Source of the DNA: Methylocystis sp. Sn-Cys
Lineage (GTDB): Bacteria; Pseudomonadota; Alphaproteobacteria; Rhizobiales; Beijerinckiaceae
Assembly (NCBI RefSeq): GCF_016745395.1
Contig: NZ_JAERVJ010000002.1
Location: 186,001-250,000 of the forward strand
Reading direction: 5' to 3'
Length of the DNA stretch: 64,000 nt
Positions 6,245 through 15,303 of this stretch are shown here, one piece after another. Each line of letters starts with the position of its first letter. Within the stretch, counting starts at the first letter, position 1. Position numbers and translations under genes: made by a program. The notes beneath the pieces are model-generated. The model ran no database searches and was not told where the DNA came from. It worked only from the letters and a program-made list of their open reading frames with translations.

Positions 6245-7717
6245 ATGACGAGAGGCGAAATTCTTGTCGCCGACGACGACGCCGCGATCCGCACTGTCGT
6301 CGCCCAGGCGCTCTCGCGCGCCGGTTACGAGGTGCGCACCACCGGCACGGCGGCGACCTTATGGCGTTGGGTGCAATCGGGCGAGGGCGATCTCGTTGTC
6401 ACCGACGTGGTGATGCCGGACGAAAATGCTTTCGAGCTTCTGCCGCGCATCAAGAAGCTGCGGCCGGAATTGCCCATCATCGTGATGAGCGCCCAAAACA
6501 CTTTCATGACGGCGATCCGCGCGTCTGAGCGGGGCGCCTATGATTATCTGCCGAAGCCCTTCGATCTGAAGGAGCTTGTCGGCATCGTCGGCCGCGCCAT
6601 GGCCGAGCCGCGCAAGGGCGGCGAGGAGGCCGCGCCGGAAGAAATGGAGGGCATGCCGCTCGTCGGGCGCTCTCCGGCGATGCAGGAGATCTATCGCTCG
6701 CTCGCGCGGCTGATGCAGACCGATCTGACGGTCATGATCAACGGCGAGTCCGGCACGGGCAAGGAGCTGGTCGCGCGCGCGCTGCATGATTACGGCAAGC
6801 GCAAGAAGGGCCCCTTCGTCGCGGTGAATATGGCGGCGATTCCGCGCGACTTGATCGAGAGCGAGCTGTTCGGCCATGAGAAGGGCGCCTTCACTGGCGC
6901 GAACCAGCGCTCGGCCGGCCGTTTCGAGCAGGCCGAGGGCGGCACGCTCTTCCTCGATGAAATCGGCGACATGCCGATGGAGGCGCAGACGCGTCTGCTG
7001 CGCGTGCTGCAGCAGGGCGAATATACGACAGTCGGCGGCCGCACGCCGATCAAGACGAATGTCCGCATCATCGCCGCGACCAACAAGGATTTGCGCGGTC
7101 TGATCCAGCAGGGTCTCTTCCGCGAGGACCTATATTTCCGTCTCAACGTCGTGCCGCTGCGCCTGCCGCCGCTGCGCGAGCGCACCGAGGATATTCCTGA
7201 TCTCGTCCACCACTTCTTCAAAGTGGCGGCGAGCGAAGGTCTGCCGCAGAAATATATCGAGCAGGCGGCGCTCGACCGGATGAAGAGATACCGCTGGCCG
7301 GGCAATATTCGCGAGCTGGAAAATCTCATCCGCCGCCTCGCCGCGCTGCATCCGCAGGAAGTGATCTCCGACCCGCTCGTCGAAGCGGAGTTGGACCACG
7401 AGTTGCGGCAGGCGACAGTGGATAAGCAGTCGTCGCCCGGCGCCGCGCCGACGAAGGAGCTGGAGAACGGCCAGACGCTCTCGACCTCCGTCGAGCAGCA
7501 CCTTGCCAAGCTCTTCCGCGATTATGGCGACGGCCTGCCGCCGCCCGGGCTTTATCACCGCGTCATCCGCGAGATCGAAATCCCGCTGATCTCCGCGGCG
7601 CTGGCGGCGACGCGCGGCAATCAGATCAAGGCGGCGGAGCTTCTGGGGTTGAACCGGAATACGCTGCGGAAGAAGGTCAATGATCTCGACATTCGGCTGA
7701 TGCGGTCGCCGAGGTGA
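6245..7717 (+). CDS. ntrC: Nitrogen regulation response regulator NtrC (sigma-54 activator)
   Basis: The 490-residue product has a receiver domain (DDD at residues 10-12, phosphoacceptor Asp54 in VVTDVVMP, conserved Lys in LPKPFD), and a central AAA+ domain with Walker A GESGTGKE, the sigma-54 contact loop GAFTGA, and Walker [13 protein letters not shown]-terminal Fis-type helix-turn-helix reads [19 protein letters not shown]. It should activate sigma-54 promoters of nitrogen-assimilation genes when phosphorylated by NtrB. In most relatives ntrY follows directly; here a 5.3-kb block intervenes. A family B repeat lies just downstream. Confidence 0.97.
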
Positions 7718-7762
7718 AGAAATTTTCCAAGGACGATACGAAATCCGCTTGATTGGGGAGCT

Positions 7763-7866
7763 GTCATTCCCGACGCTCGCGCAGCGAGCGATCGGGAATC
7801 CAGAGCCGGACCAGCGCTCTTGCGGCTCTGGATTCCCGGTCGGGCTTTCAGCCCGCCGGGAATGAC
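7763..7866. repeat. Palindromic repeat family B, copy 1 (core)
   Basis: The core begins GTCATTCCCGACGCTCGCG and ends GCCCGCCGGGAATGAC. Arms GGGAATCCAGAGC and CTCTGGATTCCC lie inside. Conserved flanks extend the unit: CCGCTTGATTGG at 7746-7757 on the left and CCAAACGGAAA near 7886-7896 on the right, giving about 150 bp in total. Confidence 0.9.
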
Positions 7867-7984
7867 AAGGCCCCACGCGAGCTGTCCAAACGGAAAGAGC
7901 GAGCCTGCTTTCGGAGAAGACGCGCTTCTACCCACAGGGCGCGATGAGTCGCTTAGTTTTAAGTTTCACCTTGTTTGCCTGCCT

Positions 7985-9001
7985 TTATCCGCCAGATTTC
8001 GCCAATTTCCGCCATCGGCCGGGCGCTACGCCGCTCCAACTTTCGAAGGCGCGACTGAAATGCGCGGGGTCACGATAGCCGAGCATCATCGCAATCTCGG
8101 TGATTGACAGGTCTGGTTGGCAAAGAAAGCTTATCGCCCGTCGCTGCCGTGTGTTTTTCAGAAGATCGGAGAAACTCAGCCCCAGTTCCGCGAGCCGACG
8201 CTGCAGCGTTCGTTTCGATAGGCCCATCCGACGAACAATGCGCGAAAGGTCAGGACGACCGTCGAGAAGCTCCAGATCGATCAGGGCGCCGATATTGCCT
8301 GGCAAGTCGTCCGGAGCCGGTATGTCGAAAATGCGCGCGAGTTCGTCGGCGTCGAGGCCTCGATCCGCGCTGAGATGCGGGTTGACCGCCATGAGCAGCC
8401 GTTGATCGAAGACGATCGTGCCGGGCAGGTCACGGATCAGTGTATCGACGCCCATCTGCGCATCAATGGAAGGTCGCGCGGTGACGGGCAGGCCGCCGAC
8501 CATGATGCGGCTTGGTAACCAATCCGCGCCGGCGAAATGGCGGATCATGACAATCATGTACCAGAGCGCGAGCATCTCGTTCTGAGGCCTCCCATCCGTG
8601 GCGGGGTCGGCCAACTCATAGGACCAGTGGACCTCGTCGCCATATCGTCGGACGGCTAGGCGCGTCGCACTCTGCATCATGTGCGGCAGACTTGTTCCCG
8701 AGCGGTGGATCGCTTCGAATAAGGTGGGCGCCTGTGTGACCCATTTGCCGTAGACCCCAAGGCCCGCGATCGAGGTTTGGCGACCAAGGCGCGCCGCGAA
8801 AGCCTCGTCGCGCAGCTCGCGCGACGCGGTCGCAAGCAGCCGAAAATGGTCGCGCAGCGGCAGAAGGGTGTCGGGCGACTCCAACAAACGGATGGGAAGC
8901 TCCGCGCGCTGAAAGACGCGCTCGATCGAGCCGCCGTTCTCCATGACGACGCCCGCGATCGGCCCGAGCGTGCTCGCGCGCGTATATCCGGTCCGTCGCA
9001 T
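7985..9001 (-). CDS. AraC-family transcriptional regulator
   Basis: The 338-residue product has an AraC-type ligand-sensing N-terminal domain of the arabinose-binding/OruR-like kind (about residues 10-210) and a C-terminal double helix-turn-helix (about 235-335) with MGLSKRTLQRRLAELGLSF and the signature ITEIAMMLGYRDPAHFSRAF. It is a DNA-binding activator or repressor; the ligand is unknown. I took ATG 9001 (MRRTGY); the frame extends to 9046. It diverges from the DUF3047 gene with 138 bp between starts, so that gene is its most likely target (inference). It lies in the block separating ntrC from ntrY. Confidence 0.88.
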   Translation of the reverse strand: MRRTGYTRASTLGPIAGVVMENGGSIERVFQRAELPIRLLESPDTLLPLRDHFRLLATASRELRDEAFAARLGRQTSIAGLGVYGKWVTQAPTLFEAIHRSGTSLPHMMQSATRLAVRRYGDEVHWSYELADPATDGRPQNEMLALWYMIVMIRHFAGADWLPSRIMVGGLPVTARPSIDAQMGVDTLIRDLPGTIVFDQRLLMAVNPHLSADRGLDADELARIFDIPAPDDLPGNIGALIDLELLDGRPDLSRIVRRMGLSKRTLQRRLAELGLSFSDLLKNTRQRRAISFLCQPDLSITEIAMMLGYRDPAHFSRAFESWSGVAPGRWRKLAKSGG

Positions 9002-9139
9002 CGATTGCCCTCTCGCGCCGTAAAAAGCTCGATTTCGGCACGCCAAGGCATGCAGATTTCCGGCGCGAGCATAACATCCCGCTTCCCGATCACGAACGCC
9101 TGACCACAGAGCGCTTGCGCGTGATCAAGGAGGAAGCGT

Positions 9140-10360
9140 ATGTGCCTTTATTGTCTCAATCTTTCCTATGCCGCGAATGCGACCGGCGCTTTTTCGCGAC
9201 GCGATATTTTGCGGCGCGCCGCGGCGCTCGGCGTGGCCTTGCCCTTCACGGCCGCCTCGAACGCAATCTGCGCCGCTGAGCAGAGCGGCCTGGCGCCAGC
9301 GGATTTCAAAAAGGGTGTCGAAGACCTTATCGCCCGGGCGCAGTCGCCCGAGCTTGCGGGCTATCGGCTCTTCCAAATCAATGGCCCCGATCTGCCTTGG
9401 ATCGATCTTGGTCTCGAGGCTGTCAAAGGCCAGCAGATCACCTTTCTTATCACCGGTCGTTGGTGGCTGTCTCGACAACACGACCTCTGGTTTCGTCCCG
9501 GTCTCGGGTTCCACGCTCGCACGCGCGGCAAACGGCCGATCTACAGCCCCGGCGCCGACACGGGCGCCATGACGGTATTGCACGACGGTCCCATCGAGGT
9601 GGCCCGCCTGGCTTCGCTGGCCGCCGACGAGGACGGCCGCCTGACCATTCCCGAAGACGTCTACGCCAAGGACGACGTGACAATCACCGGCGTCGCGCTG
9701 CTGTGGCGCGGAGAGGCCGCCGCGGGTCTTGCGAGCCTTGCGGCCCATGGCGACGTCGGCGGCCTCTTGGCGGCGGAGCTGGCGCGCCTGCGGCGTAACC
9801 GCAGGCTGCCGGACGGCTGGTCCAACCTCTTCTTGCTCGGCGGCGGTGAGGAGAGCTTCTTTCGGGACGCGAACGGCGAGATCGTCTGTGAGAGCGCGGG
9901 AGGCGCGTCGATTATCGAGCGGCCGCTGTCGCTTCCTCTCGCATCGCGTCCAAAGCTCGGCTGGCGCTGGAAGATCGACCAACTGCCGTCCGCCGTCCCG
10001 GAGGATCAGGCTCCCGTTCACGACTATCTCTCCATTGGCGTGAAATTCGAGGATGGGCAGGACCTCACCTATATCTGGAGCGCCGCGCTGCCGACCGGCA
10101 AGGTCTTCCGCTGCCCGCTTCCTGGCTGGAATGCGGTCGAGACGCACATGATCGTCGACTCCGGCGAGAATGGCCTCGGATCGTGGCGCGAAAGGGAGCG
10201 GGACGTCGCTTCCGACTACGCCGCCCATATCGGCGGGTCGGCGAAGGCGATCAGCCATATCTGGCTGTTGGCGATCACGCCTTTCCAGCGCCGCCGGGGC
10301 GCGTGCCGCTACGCCGACATCAGGGTCGAGACGGCCGACGGCGTGGCGCACAAACTTTAG
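9140..10360 (+). CDS. DUF3047 protein with Tat-like signal
   Basis: The 406-residue protein has SRRDILRRAAALGVALPF near residue 19, a twin-arginine signal, so the product is probably exported folded to the periplasm. Residues about 245-405 match the DUF3047 pattern: GWRWKIDQLP, HDYLSIGVKF, LTYIWSAALP, SWRERERDVASDYAAHIGG. The middle part (about 70-200) is not recognised. An unusual N-terminus MCLYCLNLSYAAN precedes the Tat motif. An AGGAGG at 9128-9133 supports ATG 9140. No catalytic function is known for DUF3047. A degraded copy of its 3' end lies at 11154-11262. Confidence 0.75.
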   Translation: MCLYCLNLSYAANATGAFSRRDILRRAAALGVALPFTAASNAICAAEQSGLAPADFKKGVEDLIARAQSPELAGYRLFQINGPDLPWIDLGLEAVKGQQITFLITGRWWLSRQHDLWFRPGLGFHARTRGKRPIYSPGADTGAMTVLHDGPIEVARLASLAADEDGRLTIPEDVYAKDDVTITGVALLWRGEAAAGLASLAAHGDVGGLLAAELARLRRNRRLPDGWSNLFLLGGGEESFFRDANGEIVCESAGGASIIERPLSLPLASRPKLGWRWKIDQLPSAVPEDQAPVHDYLSIGVKFEDGQDLTYIWSAALPTGKVFRCPLPGWNAVETHMIVDSGENGLGSWRERERDVASDYAAHIGGSAKAISHIWLLAITPFQRRRGACRYADIRVETADGVAHKL

Positions 10361-10402
10361 AAACGGGGGCTCGGTTGCTTTGCGCCACAAACAGAAATTT
10401 GT

Positions 10403-10888
10403 TTAACCAAGCGCCGCAAAGGCTGGTGCGTAATCGATTATCCCAGTCGCAACGGGCAAAGTCCCATTGAACGACAGAGCCATGAGGTGCGGCCCCGCAT
10501 AGGGAGATGTGAAGCCACTTGCGAGGGCTGGGTCAAAGCCAAATTTTTGATACAGGTCTGGATCGCCAAGCACGAAAACACCCAGCCATCCTTCCTTTTC
10601 AGCCTCCTTCAAGGCTGAACGGACTAACGAACCGCCAATCCCTTTACGCTGTCGATCAGGGGCAACGGCAACTGGCCCGAGACCTAGCGCAGGGAACGGA
10701 GCGCCCATTTTCGATAACATGACGTGTCCCACCACGAACCCGGATTCGACAGCGATCATTGAGATAACGGCGTCGCCATCCGACCGGAGCTGCTCGACCA
10801 ACCGCGCTTCGGCGAGTGTGGGAAAAACAGCTTCGACAATCTTTCGAATTTCAGGAACGTCAGCAGGCTCTTCGCAACGAATTATCAT
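10403..10888 (-). CDS. GNAT family N-acetyltransferase
   Basis: The 161-residue product has the GNAT acetyl-CoA binding motif A, LGPVAVAPDRQRKGIGGSLV (V-x-P-x-x-Q-x-x-G-I-G). It continues with FVLGDPDLYQKFGFDPA, typical of the YhbS-like subgroup. It should transfer acetyl from acetyl-CoA to a small molecule or protein; the substrate is unknown. I chose ATG 10888 (MIIRCEEPADV), which starts the domain; the frame extends to 10939. It is convergent with the DUF3047 gene and is the cargo of duplication unit 1. Confidence 0.88.
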   Translation of the reverse strand: MIIRCEEPADVPEIRKIVEAVFPTLAEARLVEQLRSDGDAVISMIAVESGFVVGHVMLSKMGAPFPALGLGPVAVAPDRQRKGIGGSLVRSALKEAEKEGWLGVFVLGDPDLYQKFGFDPALASGFTSPYAGPHLMALSFNGTLPVATGIIDYAPAFAALG

Positions 10889-11022
10889 CTTATCATCTCT
10901 GTTTTCGAGCCGCTGCCTTGCAGCGATTACTAAGTGCAAAAGATAGGCTTGAAATTCCGGTATCGTCTCGGCCCGTTTGGCGGCCTCAGCGAATGGCCGC
11001 TTTGGGCCAAGCGCTGTCGCCG

Positions 11023-11153
11023 CCGATCGGAGAGCGGCGCTGGTTTGTCAGAAGACGCAGAGCAACCTGTGACGGCCGTCCCCAGGGCACCCGCACCCAG
11101 AGCGTTACGCATCTGCGACAGTCTCGCCTGCGGCCTATAACGGCCCAATGATC
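11023..11153 (+). repeat. Duplicate copy of the ntrY 5' flank
   Basis: These 131 bp match 12920-13050 without gaps (116 of 131 identical) and stop at ATGATC, exactly the ntrY start codon plus one codon. Nothing after that point is related to ntrY. It is therefore an orphan ntrY upstream segment, now joined to a DUF3047 gene remnant. Confidence 0.85.
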
Positions 11154-11262
11154 TATATCGGCGGGCCGGCGAAAGCGATCAGCCATATCTGGCTGTTGGC
11201 GATCAAGCCCTTCCTGCGCCGCCGGGGCGCGTGGCGCTAAGCCGACGGCTGACGGCGTGGCG
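11154..11262 (+). pseudogene. 3' remnant of the DUF3047 gene
   Basis: The segment repeats bases 10226-10318 of the intact gene at about 92% identity, then has a deletion of about 14 nt before a last matching stretch (11244-11262 against 10330-10348). The codon corresponding to Tyr in CGCTAC is TAA here, so it cannot encode the original C-terminus. It overlaps the last codons of the ApeA-like gene on the opposite strand. Confidence 0.8.
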
Positions 11263-12661
11263 TATCCGGGATAAACGTCCCATAGCGATGCGCTTGCGAC
11301 AAGAAGGCGGCTCTGATCTGATCCCCGGTGAAGCCGAGCACCTTCAGAACATGGTAGCGACCCAACGCCGCGAGGTAGTGAAGATGGATAACCATTTCCT
11401 GTAAAACGTCGCTGGACACTTCCAGTCCCCGTCCGTGGGGAAGGAGATTCCGTAACTCTCGGATACGCTTAAGGTCTGGATTTCCCCTGAACCCATCTTC
11501 GTTCCAAATCTTATGCAAGCGTTCGAGACGTTTAAGAAGAGAATATCCATTGGATGCTGTCCCGCTTATTCGTCTGAATAAGGTAATGTCCGCTCTTGAG
11601 CCGTGTTTTTCGATCAGCGCATTCAGACGCTTCATATCCTGCTCAAAATTTTCATCCGCTCCCGATCCGAATGTGCGACGGTCAAAGTCTTCTAGGCAGC
11701 CAAGAATCTCACCGTATCCTTGAGTAATCGAGAGATCGTAATCTTCAGCGCTCTGAATTTGGTCGGCGAGGAAGATGAGTTCGTCACTGCTTCCCGAGAC
11801 GTGGTTTAGCAGCGCCTCCAACGGAACAGGGGACCGTTTCTCGAACGTCAAGCGACGGAATACTTCTGGTGGAGCGTCTCGGCGCTTCTTTCTGGGGATA
11901 GGTTGATACCAGTACTCGGCGACGACCTCGTGTTCCTCGCCATTCCACAGTCGCTTATGCGTTGTAGGGAGATAATAGATAGGCGCCTGCACCCGTGCGC
12001 CGATCAGAAATTCGAACAGAGCGGAAACCCGCCCCGCTACACGAGTAACCGCGTCGAAATTGACCGGCTTGGGAAATTGCAGCTCCAGCAGGGTGTATTC
12101 CTCCAGCGTCGTGGCCTCGCCGCTGGGAACGCGGGTCGCGCTGGTAACCTTCGCCTGCGTTCCATCTGCCAAGGTGAAAGTGCGCTGCTGCGGCGGCTGA
12201 ACATCGACAGAAAGGGAGGGGAGACCAGCGTCCTCGGGCCGCGACCAGTCTGGGTTGACAAGGCAAGGATTTACCCAAGCATGAAATGCCGGGTTTTCGA
12301 CCGCGAGCCCCGTGAAGATGGGGGCGCTGATGTCCTCTAAGAAGACATTCCGTAGGAGGGCGTTAGCGACGAACCGTCGGGACTCCCGCATTACTGGGGT
12401 ATCCATGCCGATGCTTAATCGACGGGTTCTCTGAACCCACGGCTGGATGAGTGTCGCCGGCCGCTGATAGTCCAGCCATCCTGTCAAGGTCTGGCCGCTG
12501 ACGCGAAAGCCATCCTGGTTCTCGCGGCTCCCCGAAAACCGAATCGTATCGAGATATATTCCCTCATCCAAATCGAAGGTCAGGCGTGCGGGCAGGTGAT
12601 CGGCTTCGTCGCTATGGTTCGGACGAACGGCGAACCATTCCTCGAAACTCTCAAGCCTCAT
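11237..12661 (-). CDS. ApeA-like HEPN-domain anti-phage protein
   Basis: The 474-residue product is a single-gene system candidate. Residues about 1-290 resemble the ApeA N-terminal domain (LPARLTFDLDEGIYLDTI, LTGWLDY, FHAWVNPCL). The C-terminal helical part contains RNLLPHG at 404-410, matching the HEPN nuclease motif R-x4-H, followed by a long helix. ApeA proteins are known as abortive-infection HEPN ribonucleases. The assignment is from motif and layout, not a database match, so a related HEPN family is possible. The last codons are encoded by DNA derived from the DUF3047 remnant. The gene is alone on its strand and lies in duplication unit 2. Confidence 0.68.
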   Translation of the reverse strand: MRLESFEEWFAVRPNHSDEADHLPARLTFDLDEGIYLDTIRFSGSRENQDGFRVSGQTLTGWLDYQRPATLIQPWVQRTRRLSIGMDTPVMRESRRFVANALLRNVFLEDISAPIFTGLAVENPAFHAWVNPCLVNPDWSRPEDAGLPSLSVDVQPPQQRTFTLADGTQAKVTSATRVPSGEATTLEEYTLLELQFPKPVNFDAVTRVAGRVSALFEFLIGARVQAPIYYLPTTHKRLWNGEEHEVVAEYWYQPIPRKKRRDAPPEVFRRLTFEKRSPVPLEALLNHVSGSSDELIFLADQIQSAEDYDLSITQGYGEILGCLEDFDRRTFGSGADENFEQDMKRLNALIEKHGSRADITLFRRISGTASNGYSLLKRLERLHKIWNEDGFRGNPDLKRIRELRNLLPHGRGLEVSSDVLQEMVIHLHYLAALGRYHVLKVLGFTGDQIRAAFLSQAHRYGTFIPDTPRRQPSA

Positions 12662-12919
12662 CGAAATCTCTCATTACCGGTTCGAGGGTAAGGGTTTAAG
12701 AGCGCATCGCTCATGCGGTCGGTTTCGGCGCAGATCGTGGATGGCGCGTATTTGTCATGCCAGCCTTGATGTCCTGGCCGACGTTGAGCCGACCGCCTCG
12801 ATTAACACCAAGCATGCGGCGGCTTTCCTAAACATCGCTACTCCGGAGCCAACCGACCGCTTCCGGCTGCATCCTCAACGTACCAACTACCCTAAGCCAG
12901 TAGTCAAGCACGGCCGACA

Positions 12920-13050
12920 CCGATCGGAGAGCGGCGCTGGTTTGTGAGAACTCGCAGACCAACCCGTGACGGACGTCCCCGGCGCATCCCCACCCAAAGC
13001 CTTACGCATTTGCGACAGTCTCGCCCGCGGCCTATAACCGCCCAATGATC
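12920..13050 (+). promoter_or_regulatory. ntrY 5' flank, functional copy of the duplicated segment
   Basis: This is the copy still attached to ntrY. The proposed ATG is at 13045, inside the last bases of the repeat. Conservation of 131 bp up to the start codon suggests it held the ntrY promoter or leader. No clear -35/-10 pair was identified. Bases 12662-12919, just upstream, show no gene. Confidence 0.45.
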
Positions 13051-15303
13051 CAAACAGGCGAGCAAGCACTTTCCGACAGCGGCAAAAGCGCGGGCGGCCG
13101 CGCCTGGTTCGGGCCGGCGGTCGTCGTCGGCGCCGTCAGTTGTGCGCTCGCCACCTTCCTCGTCACGGCTGAGTTCGGCGTTATCTCGCCGACGGACAAT
13201 CGACTCATCCCGCTTTTCATCGCCAATGTGTTCTTCGTCGGCGTCCTTCTGGCCATGGTGGTCGCCAAGGCGATGCGGCTGTATCGCGTCTGGCGGCGCG
13301 GCGAGGCGGCGGCGCGGCTGCATGTCCGCATCGTTGGCTTCTTCTCGGTCATCGCGCTCATTCCGGCGGTGCTCCTCGCCGTCGCGGGGTCGCTGACGCT
13401 GGAGCGGGCGCTGAACCCCGCCTTCATGAATGGCGTGAAGGTCTTTGTGCACAACACCGCCCAGGCGGCCGAAGCCTTTCAATCGAGCCAGTGCCAGGCG
13501 CTGCTTCAGGAGGCGCAGCTGACCGCCTCCGACCTCGACCGGGCGCGCGTGCTCTTCATCACCGACCGCAATTATTTCCACCAGATTTTCGACTCGCGCG
13601 CCAAATTTCTCGGCTTCTCCGTTGCGGCCCTGGTGTCCTCCAACGGTCAGGTCATCGACCGGGTGGATGTGAGCCAGAACGCCTCGGCGATCGTCATCGC
13701 GCCTCCGCAGTCGGAATTCGACAATGCGCGCAAGGGCGAGCCGCTCTGTCTGATGATCGACGACGGCAAGAGCTTCGTCGCGCTCAGGGCGCTGCACGCC
13801 TTCGAGAACACCTTTCTTTACGTCACCCGCCCGATCGACCCCTTTGCCGTCGACTTCCCCAAGCAGGCCGAAAAGCTGATCAGCAATTACGACGCTTTCG
13901 ACGCCTATCGCGTGGCCGTGCAGCGCGCCTTCGTGCTCATGTACGCCCTGTTGACGATGATCATGCTGCTGTCCTCGGTCTGGTTCGGCCTCGATTTCGC
14001 CGACCGGCTGGTGAGCCCGATCCGCACGCTTATCGCCGCGACCGACCAGGTTTCGGGCGGCAATCTCCAGGTGCAGGTGCGGGTCGATCGCGCCCATGGC
14101 GAGCTGGCGCGCCTCGGCGACGTCTTCAACAATATGACGACCGAGCTGAACCTTCAGCAGAGCCGGCTGCTCGAGGCGAACCGGATCAACGACGAGCGGC
14201 GCGAATTCACCGAGGCCGTGCTGGCTGGCGTGCCGGCGGCGGTCATGGGCGTCGATGCGGACGGGATCGTGACCGTCCTCAACCGGTCGGCCGAGGAATT
14301 GTCGCTCAACGACGCCAAGGGGCAGGCGACGGTCGGCGCCAATATCGCGGACGTCATGCCCGAGATCGCGCCGCTTCTCACCGACGCGCTCGAACTGTTC
14401 CCGCGCGCGGTGCAGAGCCAGGTCACAATGAAGCGCGGGACGGCCGAGCGGACCCTCAACATTCGCGTGACCTCGGCGCGCCGCGCCGAGGAAGGCGCGC
14501 CGAGCTTCGTCGTCACGCTCGATGACATCACCGACCTCGTCTCTGCCCAGCGCACCTCCGCCTGGGCCGATGTGGCGCGCCGCATCGCCCATGAGATCAA
14601 AAATCCGCTGACGCCGATCCAGCTCTCCGCCGAGCGCCTCAAGCGCAAATATGGCAAGCTGATTCAGGTGGACCGCGACGTGTTCGACCAATGTATCGAC
14701 ACGATTGTGCGGCAGGTAGACGACATCAAGCGCATGGTGGACGAGTTCTCCTCCTTCGCCCGCATGCCCAAGGCGCGGCCGGCGCGCGACGACATCAGCG
14801 AATGCGCCCGGCAGGTCGCCTTCCTGATGCGGGTCGGAAACTCTGACGTCGACATCGTCGAAACCCAGCTAGGGGGGCCTGTCTATGCGCAATTCGACCG
14901 GCGGCTCCTCTCGCAGGCGCTGACGAATATCGTGAAGAACGCCATAGAGGGGATCGCCGCCCGCGCGCCGCAGGACGCGGCCGAGAAGGGCAGGGTCGAA
15001 ATCCGCCTGTCTGTGCGCGAGCGCATGGCGGAAATCGACGTCATCGACAATGGAAAAGGCTTCCCGGCGATCAACCGGCAACGGCTGCTCGAGCCTTACA
15101 TGACCACGCGGTCGGACGGCACGGGCCTCGGTCTGCCCATTGTCGCCAAAATCATAGAAGATCACGGCGGCCGACTGGAGCTTCTCGACGCTCCCGTTGG
15201 GCGCGGGGCCTGCGTGCGGCTCGTCCTGCCGCTGGCGGACGCCGACAAGGACAACACAAACCAGCCGGAAACGGCAAATTCCTCTGAAACGAGCGGGGCC
15301 TAA
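13045..15303 (+). CDS. ntrY: Membrane sensor histidine kinase NtrY
   Basis: The 752-residue kinase has N-terminal membrane segments (about residues 20-115), a periplasmic part (about 120-290), a further membrane segment near 295-315, a HAMP region with DRLVSPIRTLIAATDQV, a PAS domain (about 390-500) and a kinase core with His in [15 protein letters not shown]. Its ATPase boxes are NIVKNAIEGIA, DNGKGFPAINRQRLLEPYMTT and DGTGLGLPIVAK. NtrY with NtrX forms a second nitrogen/redox two-component pair in alphaproteobacteria. Its stop TAA shares one base with the ntrX ATG (TAATG). Confidence 0.95.
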   Translation: MIQTGEQALSDSGKSAGGRAWFGPAVVVGAVSCALATFLVTAEFGVISPTDNRLIPLFIANVFFVGVLLAMVVAKAMRLYRVWRRGEAAARLHVRIVGFFSVIALIPAVLLAVAGSLTLERALNPAFMNGVKVFVHNTAQAAEAFQSSQCQALLQEAQLTASDLDRARVLFITDRNYFHQIFDSRAKFLGFSVAALVSSNGQVIDRVDVSQNASAIVIAPPQSEFDNARKGEPLCLMIDDGKSFVALRALHAFENTFLYVTRPIDPFAVDFPKQAEKLISNYDAFDAYRVAVQRAFVLMYALLTMIMLLSSVWFGLDFADRLVSPIRTLIAATDQVSGGNLQVQVRVDRAHGELARLGDVFNNMTTELNLQQSRLLEANRINDERREFTEAVLAGVPAAVMGVDADGIVTVLNRSAEELSLNDAKGQATVGANIADVMPEIAPLLTDALELFPRAVQSQVTMKRGTAERTLNIRVTSARRAEEGAPSFVVTLDDITDLVSAQRTSAWADVARRIAHEIKNPLTPIQLSAERLKRKYGKLIQVDRDVFDQCIDTIVRQVDDIKRMVDEFSSFARMPKARPARDDISECARQVAFLMRVGNSDVDIVETQLGGPVYAQFDRRLLSQALTNIVKNAIEGIAARAPQDAAEKGRVEIRLSVRERMAEIDVIDNGKGFPAINRQRLLEPYMTTRSDGTGLGLPIVAKIIEDHGGRLELLDAPVGRGACVRLVLPLADADKDNTNQPETANSSETSGA

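Follow-up and report, generated by a model that had tools for sequence, protein, structure and literature searches.

A probable tandem duplication of a small gene slot between ntrC and ntrY in Methylocystis sp. Sn-Cys, with an ApeA-like gene in the second copy

The interval between the nitrogen-regulation genes ntrC and ntrY of Methylocystis sp. Sn-Cys is best explained by a tandem duplication of a gene slot, after which an ApeA-like gene replaced the middle of the second copy, and we consider this history probable. It is supported by relatives that carry the slot in single copy, by the positions of the breakpoints, by a close homologue of the ApeA-like gene in Afipia, by purifying selection on that gene and by decay of the upstream copy of the ntrY promoter. 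The strain (G000 in the genome set) also possesses a gene for methane/ammonia monooxygenase subunit A (PF02461), and the order of genes at the locus is ntrBC-ntrYX-hfq-hflX, a combination that points to an alphaproteobacterial methanotroph. Coordinates are positions within the 64,000-nucleotide stretch that was analyzed, referred to here as the window. The two copies of the left end are termed A1 and A2, and those of the right end B1 and B2.

Features of the ntrC-ntrY interval (coordinates, strand, description):
6245..7717, +, ntrC, left core boundary of the slot (ORF; 81-91% nucleotide match in relatives)
7735..7900, no strand, interspersed palindromic (REP-like) repeat between ntrC and the AraC gene (self-complementary, with copies in the genome)
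7985..9046, -, AraC-family regulator, cargo common to G218 and G002 (PF12625/PF12833)
9140..10360, +, DUF3047 gene, intact, also in G218 and G002; its 3' end is repeat A1 (PF11249)
10227..10318, +, repeat A1, the DUF3047 3' end, in frame (sequence comparison)
10403..10939, -, GNAT acetyltransferase, cargo of unit 1, also in G218 and G002 (PF13527/PF00583)
10985..11153, +, repeat B1, duplicate of the promoter region and first two codons of ntrY; upstream part common to G218
11148..11160, no strand, duplication junction between B1 and A2, ATGATC followed by TATATCGG (sequence comparison)
11155..11262, +, repeat A2, DUF3047 3'-end remnant with stop and a 14-nt deletion
11237..12661, -, ApeA-like HEPN gene, 474 aa, motif RNLLPH, cargo of unit 2 (PF18862)
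12759..12903, no strand, segment between the ApeA upstream region and B2 (no Afipia match)
12904..13050, +, repeat B2, ntrY promoter, TTGCGA-17-TATAAC with ATG 6 nt later (sequence comparison)
13045..15303, +, ntrY, right core boundary, intact (NtrY_N, HisKA, HATPase_c; 96% nucleotide identity to G218)

The REP-like repeat, of which about 40 scored copies occur in the genome, mostly 84-93% identical, marks the left edge of the slot.

Duplicated ends, junction and promoter copies

The initial annotation had reported that the two units share both of their ends, and re-measurement returned exactly the same values: the left ends (10227-10318 and 11155-11246) are identical at 85 of 92 positions and the right ends (11023-11153 and 12920-13050) at 116 of 131, without gaps. 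Its gene calls for DUF3047, GNAT, ApeA-like and ntrY were likewise upheld by matches to Pfam domains, with PF11249 matched at E 3e-25 for DUF3047 and PF13527/PF00583 at about 1e-9 for GNAT, the start of which is probably near 10888. A search of the whole 4.02-Mb genome found the right-end copy at E = 2.7e-44 and no third copy of either end; each end thus occurs at only two places genome-wide, ruling out a dispersed element as the nature of the repeats. Divergence of 8-12% between the copies, both of which lie within one 502-kb contig, makes an assembly artefact unlikely.

The limits of the repeats point to which unit is the older. Past 11246, A2 resumes on the far side of a 14-nt deletion and can be followed to about 11262. 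B1 reaches leftward to about 10985 in sequence common to G218, a genome of the same species (about 96% nucleotide identity), and B2 begins only at about 12904, where the match to G218 ends. Since B1 retains the native upstream sequence and B2 does not, the original layout is preserved in unit 1, and unit 2 is the copy that changed. At the junction, ATGATC is joined to TATATCGG. B runs on as CCAAAC, and GCC precedes A, ahead of CATATCGG. This would fit a 3-bp CCA overlap with one later C-to-T change, although three bases are weak evidence and the fit is suggestive only. The junction also puts the ntrY start codon of B1 in one reading frame with the remnant of DUF3047 (11148-11240), and the resulting 30-residue chimeric ORF, MIYIGGPAKAISHIWLLAIKPFLRRRGAWR, is probably a product of chance.

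In relatives whose sequence could be parsed, ntrY is immediately preceded by TTGCxA (or TTACAA), a 17-bp spacer, TATAxx and 5-7 nt to the ATG. This layout, seen in the window at 13010-13047 and in the relatives, suggests that a leaderless ntrY mRNA is conserved in the genus. A second genome, G011, likewise carries a duplicate of its ntrY promoter in the slot, and the ntrY-proximal copy is intact in both genomes. The -35 box of the upstream copy in G000, B1, has been altered to CTGCGA, and the upstream copy in G011 has lost its -10 box through a 3-nt deletion. These promoter sequences fit a predicted division into a dead upstream spare and a working ntrY-proximal copy. In several relatives (G009, G011, G021 and G023) the ntrY -35 box is overlapped by a dyad, GTTGCACATTTGCAAC (window 13001-13016), a possible operator that takes a degenerate form in G000, G218 and the sister species G002.

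The interval in relatives

The ntrC and ntrY flanks were followed in 34 genomes of the genus with usable ntrY, and in G218, with ntrC mostly inferred from the spacing between ntrB and ntrY. Comparison across relatives had been proposed as the check on the slot, and it bore the proposal out: neither of the outcomes that would have spoken against it, the same cargo in all relatives or related ends at many loci, occurred. A gap of about 1.6-1.9 kb, leaving room for ntrC alone, separates ntrB from ntrY in 29 of the 34 readable genomes; it is longer in the other five (G000, G002, G009, G010, and G011), and G218 is also occupied. In G218 and G002 each end is present once, in the order AraC, DUF3047, GNAT, a decayed P-loop ORF and ntrY, and the ApeA-like gene is absent. 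The P-loop ORF, situated between GNAT and ntrY, reads as out of frame at its start in these two genomes and has been lost from the window. The cargo of G009 comprises two DUF488 genes, an IS4/5-type transposase and a short dual-OB-like ORF; that of G010 is a glycosyltransferase 61 gene; and that of G011 includes a 538-aa gene without assignment, DUF1217, ApbE and a small gene that is EF-hand-like by eye. There are therefore four mutually unrelated cargo sets alongside 29 empty intervals. Because empty genomes fall between the occupied ones when ordered by ntrY identity, the four sets look like separate arrivals.

With the same core flanks in relatives, unrelated cargo and empty sites, the interval has the properties of a variable hotspot, and its status as a small variable gene slot is supported. 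The proposal of the initial annotation that a slot was duplicated and that its copies differ in cargo is supported with one amendment, namely that GNAT is older cargo common to G218 and G002 (dN/dS 0.24-0.27 against these genomes) and only the ApeA-like block is new to this strain. Its placement of a slot boundary at the 3' end of DUF3047 does not hold: the left end of the duplicated unit lies inside cargo, and DUF3047 is itself a slot insert rather than a core boundary. Nor was its likeness to a defence-type hotspot sustained, as one defence-family gene was found in one genome and the rest of the cargo is metabolic, regulatory or without an assigned function, plus one transposase. Defence genes do not recur at the site, the other cargo being AraC, DUF3047, GNAT, DUF488, GT61, ApbE, and DUF1217.

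The ApeA-like gene

The cargo of unit 2 is ApeA-like by its domains. The N-terminal domain ApeA_NTD1 (PF18862) scores 47.2 bits (E 2.7e-12) against a cut-off of 25.5 and is matched by all six homologues, and HEPN_Apea (PF18739) falls under its cut-off of 24.4 with 19.1 bits (E 0.0018). The motif R404-x4-H409 is invariant across the six homologues. The PADLOC Cas13-ApeA model gave only E 0.046, and the predicted structure, made from a two-sequence alignment, has a mean pLDDT of 32. In the literature, ApeA HEPN proteins are placed among nuclease-type or antiphage defence proteins (PMC3710099, which names the family; PMC7699616; PMC10952713), and the latter two cite the antiphage ApeA of Gao et al. 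(2020). The product is probably of the HEPN RNase type and is predicted to be antiphage. The gene resembles known ApeA in its above-cut-off N-terminal domain, the R-x4-H motif of its putative HEPN region and its patchy distribution; it differs in the sub-cut-off HEPN_Apea match and in a C-terminal tail captured from the remnant of a neighboring gene.

Over 11265-12758 the gene is 82% identical at the nucleotide level to one of Afipia sp. 64-13. The match begins 97 nt upstream of the ApeA-like start codon and ends at 11265, near the end of A2 at about 11262, and the last eight or so residues and the stop codon are encoded by the antisense strand of A2. The Afipia protein extends 30 residues further. 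As the homologue of G333 ends at the same place as the window protein, the lost tail lies outside the conserved core. A dN/dS of 0.27 between the window and Afipia genes demonstrates purifying selection on the protein over their joint history. The gene was found in one of 199 genomes of the family (G000 only) and in five of 397 genomes of the order, including G000, a rare and scattered occurrence that is the pattern of horizontal transfer. The phage records searched contained no match and the plasmid records one distant match with 23% identity, none being close; an origin from a phage or plasmid was accordingly rejected.

Upstream of the gene, the segment of about 145 bp at 12759-12903 matched neither Afipia nor anything else searched. 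An ORF at 12741-12947 is faintly helix-turn-helix-like by eye; the idea that it is an excisionase remnant was dropped, as it has neither a Pfam nor a plasmid match. The Afipia homologue has a divergent 817-aa gene upstream of it (L051, 1307-3760) with a SEC-C-like motif, DUF4238-like by eye and possibly another defence or mobile gene.

Routes to the present arrangement

Under the favored history, the ancestral slot in the lineage of G000, G218, and G002 would have held AraC, DUF3047, GNAT, and the P-loop ORF. Illegitimate joining of B (the ntrY promoter and first codons) to A (the 3' end of DUF3047) would have duplicated the stretch from A through B in tandem. Copy 1 would then have retained GNAT but not the P-loop ORF, which was broken by that time, while in copy 2 a horizontally acquired ApeA-like gene, with its own upstream region, would have replaced everything between A2 and B2. 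The insertion would have been tolerated because ntrY was left with an intact promoter in B2. No intermediate, whether two GNAT units or A-ApeA-B alone, was found among the genomes examined, and we therefore infer the order of events, as well as entry by ordinary recombination. Tandem duplication, ordinary recombination and decay suffice as a mechanism and are the most likely one, no recombinase having been found among the slot ORFs examined.

Distances among the three related genomes bear on how the arrangement reached G000. For ntrY, dS from G000 is 0.14 to G218 and 0.29 to G002, and for ntrX 0.11 (part of the gene only) and 0.21, whereas DUF3047 and GNAT stand at about 0.2 from both. Counts of lineage-specific differences vary between slot and flanks (chi-square p about 3e-6, with sites taken as independent), making exchange between lineages at the locus likely. 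Since ntrC is near-equal in distance too (0.14 and 0.15 to G218 and G002, respectively), any tract that was exchanged extends beyond the slot. Because the slot genes, unlike ntrY, are equally distant from G218 and G002, the arrangement may have been introduced as a whole, already formed.

Such exchange would agree with a Campbell-type insertion, in which a circle bearing A-ApeA-B from a related strain, closed at the joint of B to A, recombined with the resident B. A single crossover would then suffice and would yield exactly the observed order, B1, A2-ApeA-B2, with GNAT first and ApeA second; the duplicated ntrY end around the cargo of G011 would be accounted for as well. However, a strain with a single A-ApeA-B slot was not found among the 199 family and 397 order genomes, and no plasmid or phage record holds a close copy of the ApeA-like gene, and we regard this route as rather unlikely.

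In G011 the duplicated stretch covers the promoter and roughly the first 39 codons of that genome's ntrY; its two copies agree at 125 of 137 positions and are separated by about 2.4 kb of cargo. They resemble each other more than any other sequence compared, and the breakpoint, at about codon 39 of ntrY, differs from that of G000, which follows ATGATC; the G011 duplication is for these reasons independent, and shared ancestry with that of G000 was rejected. That two of the four cargo sets are accompanied by a duplication could mean that they share a route, or simply that insertions survive at this site when ntrY keeps a promoter. That duplication and replacement recur at the ntrY promoter end, with G000 and G011 as products of that route rather than of coincidence, is a doubtful proposition. 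If it were true, the duplicated ntrY end would provide a spare promoter and a non-essential landing pad on which foreign genes could settle without silencing the regulator.

The two independent duplications around different cargo could also be read as the work of a dedicated mobile element or integrase that targets the 5' end of ntrY, restores it on insertion and leaves duplicated ends. No integrase or recombinase was recognized among the slot ORFs of G000, G002, G218, G010, and G011, the sole transposase is IS4/5-like and lies in G009, which has no duplicated end, and the differing breakpoints of G000 and G011 leave no fixed attachment site, so that the interval lacks the marks of an integrase-driven island and such an element is very improbable. 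Reciprocal loss, in which an ancestral slot holding both cargo genes was duplicated whole and each copy lost the other gene, requires only duplication and deletion, but is scarcely credible given that ApeA is missing from G218 and G002 and that its left breakpoint falls within the A2 remnant, at a place that the GNAT side would occupy in an ancestral slot.

The closest known kind of locus is the hotspot of horizontal transfer without mobile elements (Oliveira et al., 2017; PMC5635113), which the ntrC-ntrY slot resembles in its fixed core neighbors, unrelated cargo, lack of an integrase and signs of homologous exchange; it differs in being much smaller (0-5 kb), seen across species and itself tandem-duplicated. 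The core defence hotspots of Pseudomonas aeruginosa (Johnson et al., 2023; PMC10250203) are similarly core-bounded, and the slot has a defence-family gene in one strain, but its cargo is mostly non-defence and the site is empty in most genomes. A literature search for duplicated slots returned no match. The duplication is ordinary in kind and unusually legible, and the general view of such hotspots is unchanged by it. What it shows, through its readable breakpoints, is how a recombinase-free slot can gain a second place for cargo, by a route in which the slot end and the downstream promoter are duplicated, with old cargo in one copy and new in the other; the case also marks a diverged ApeA-like gene as a candidate for testing.
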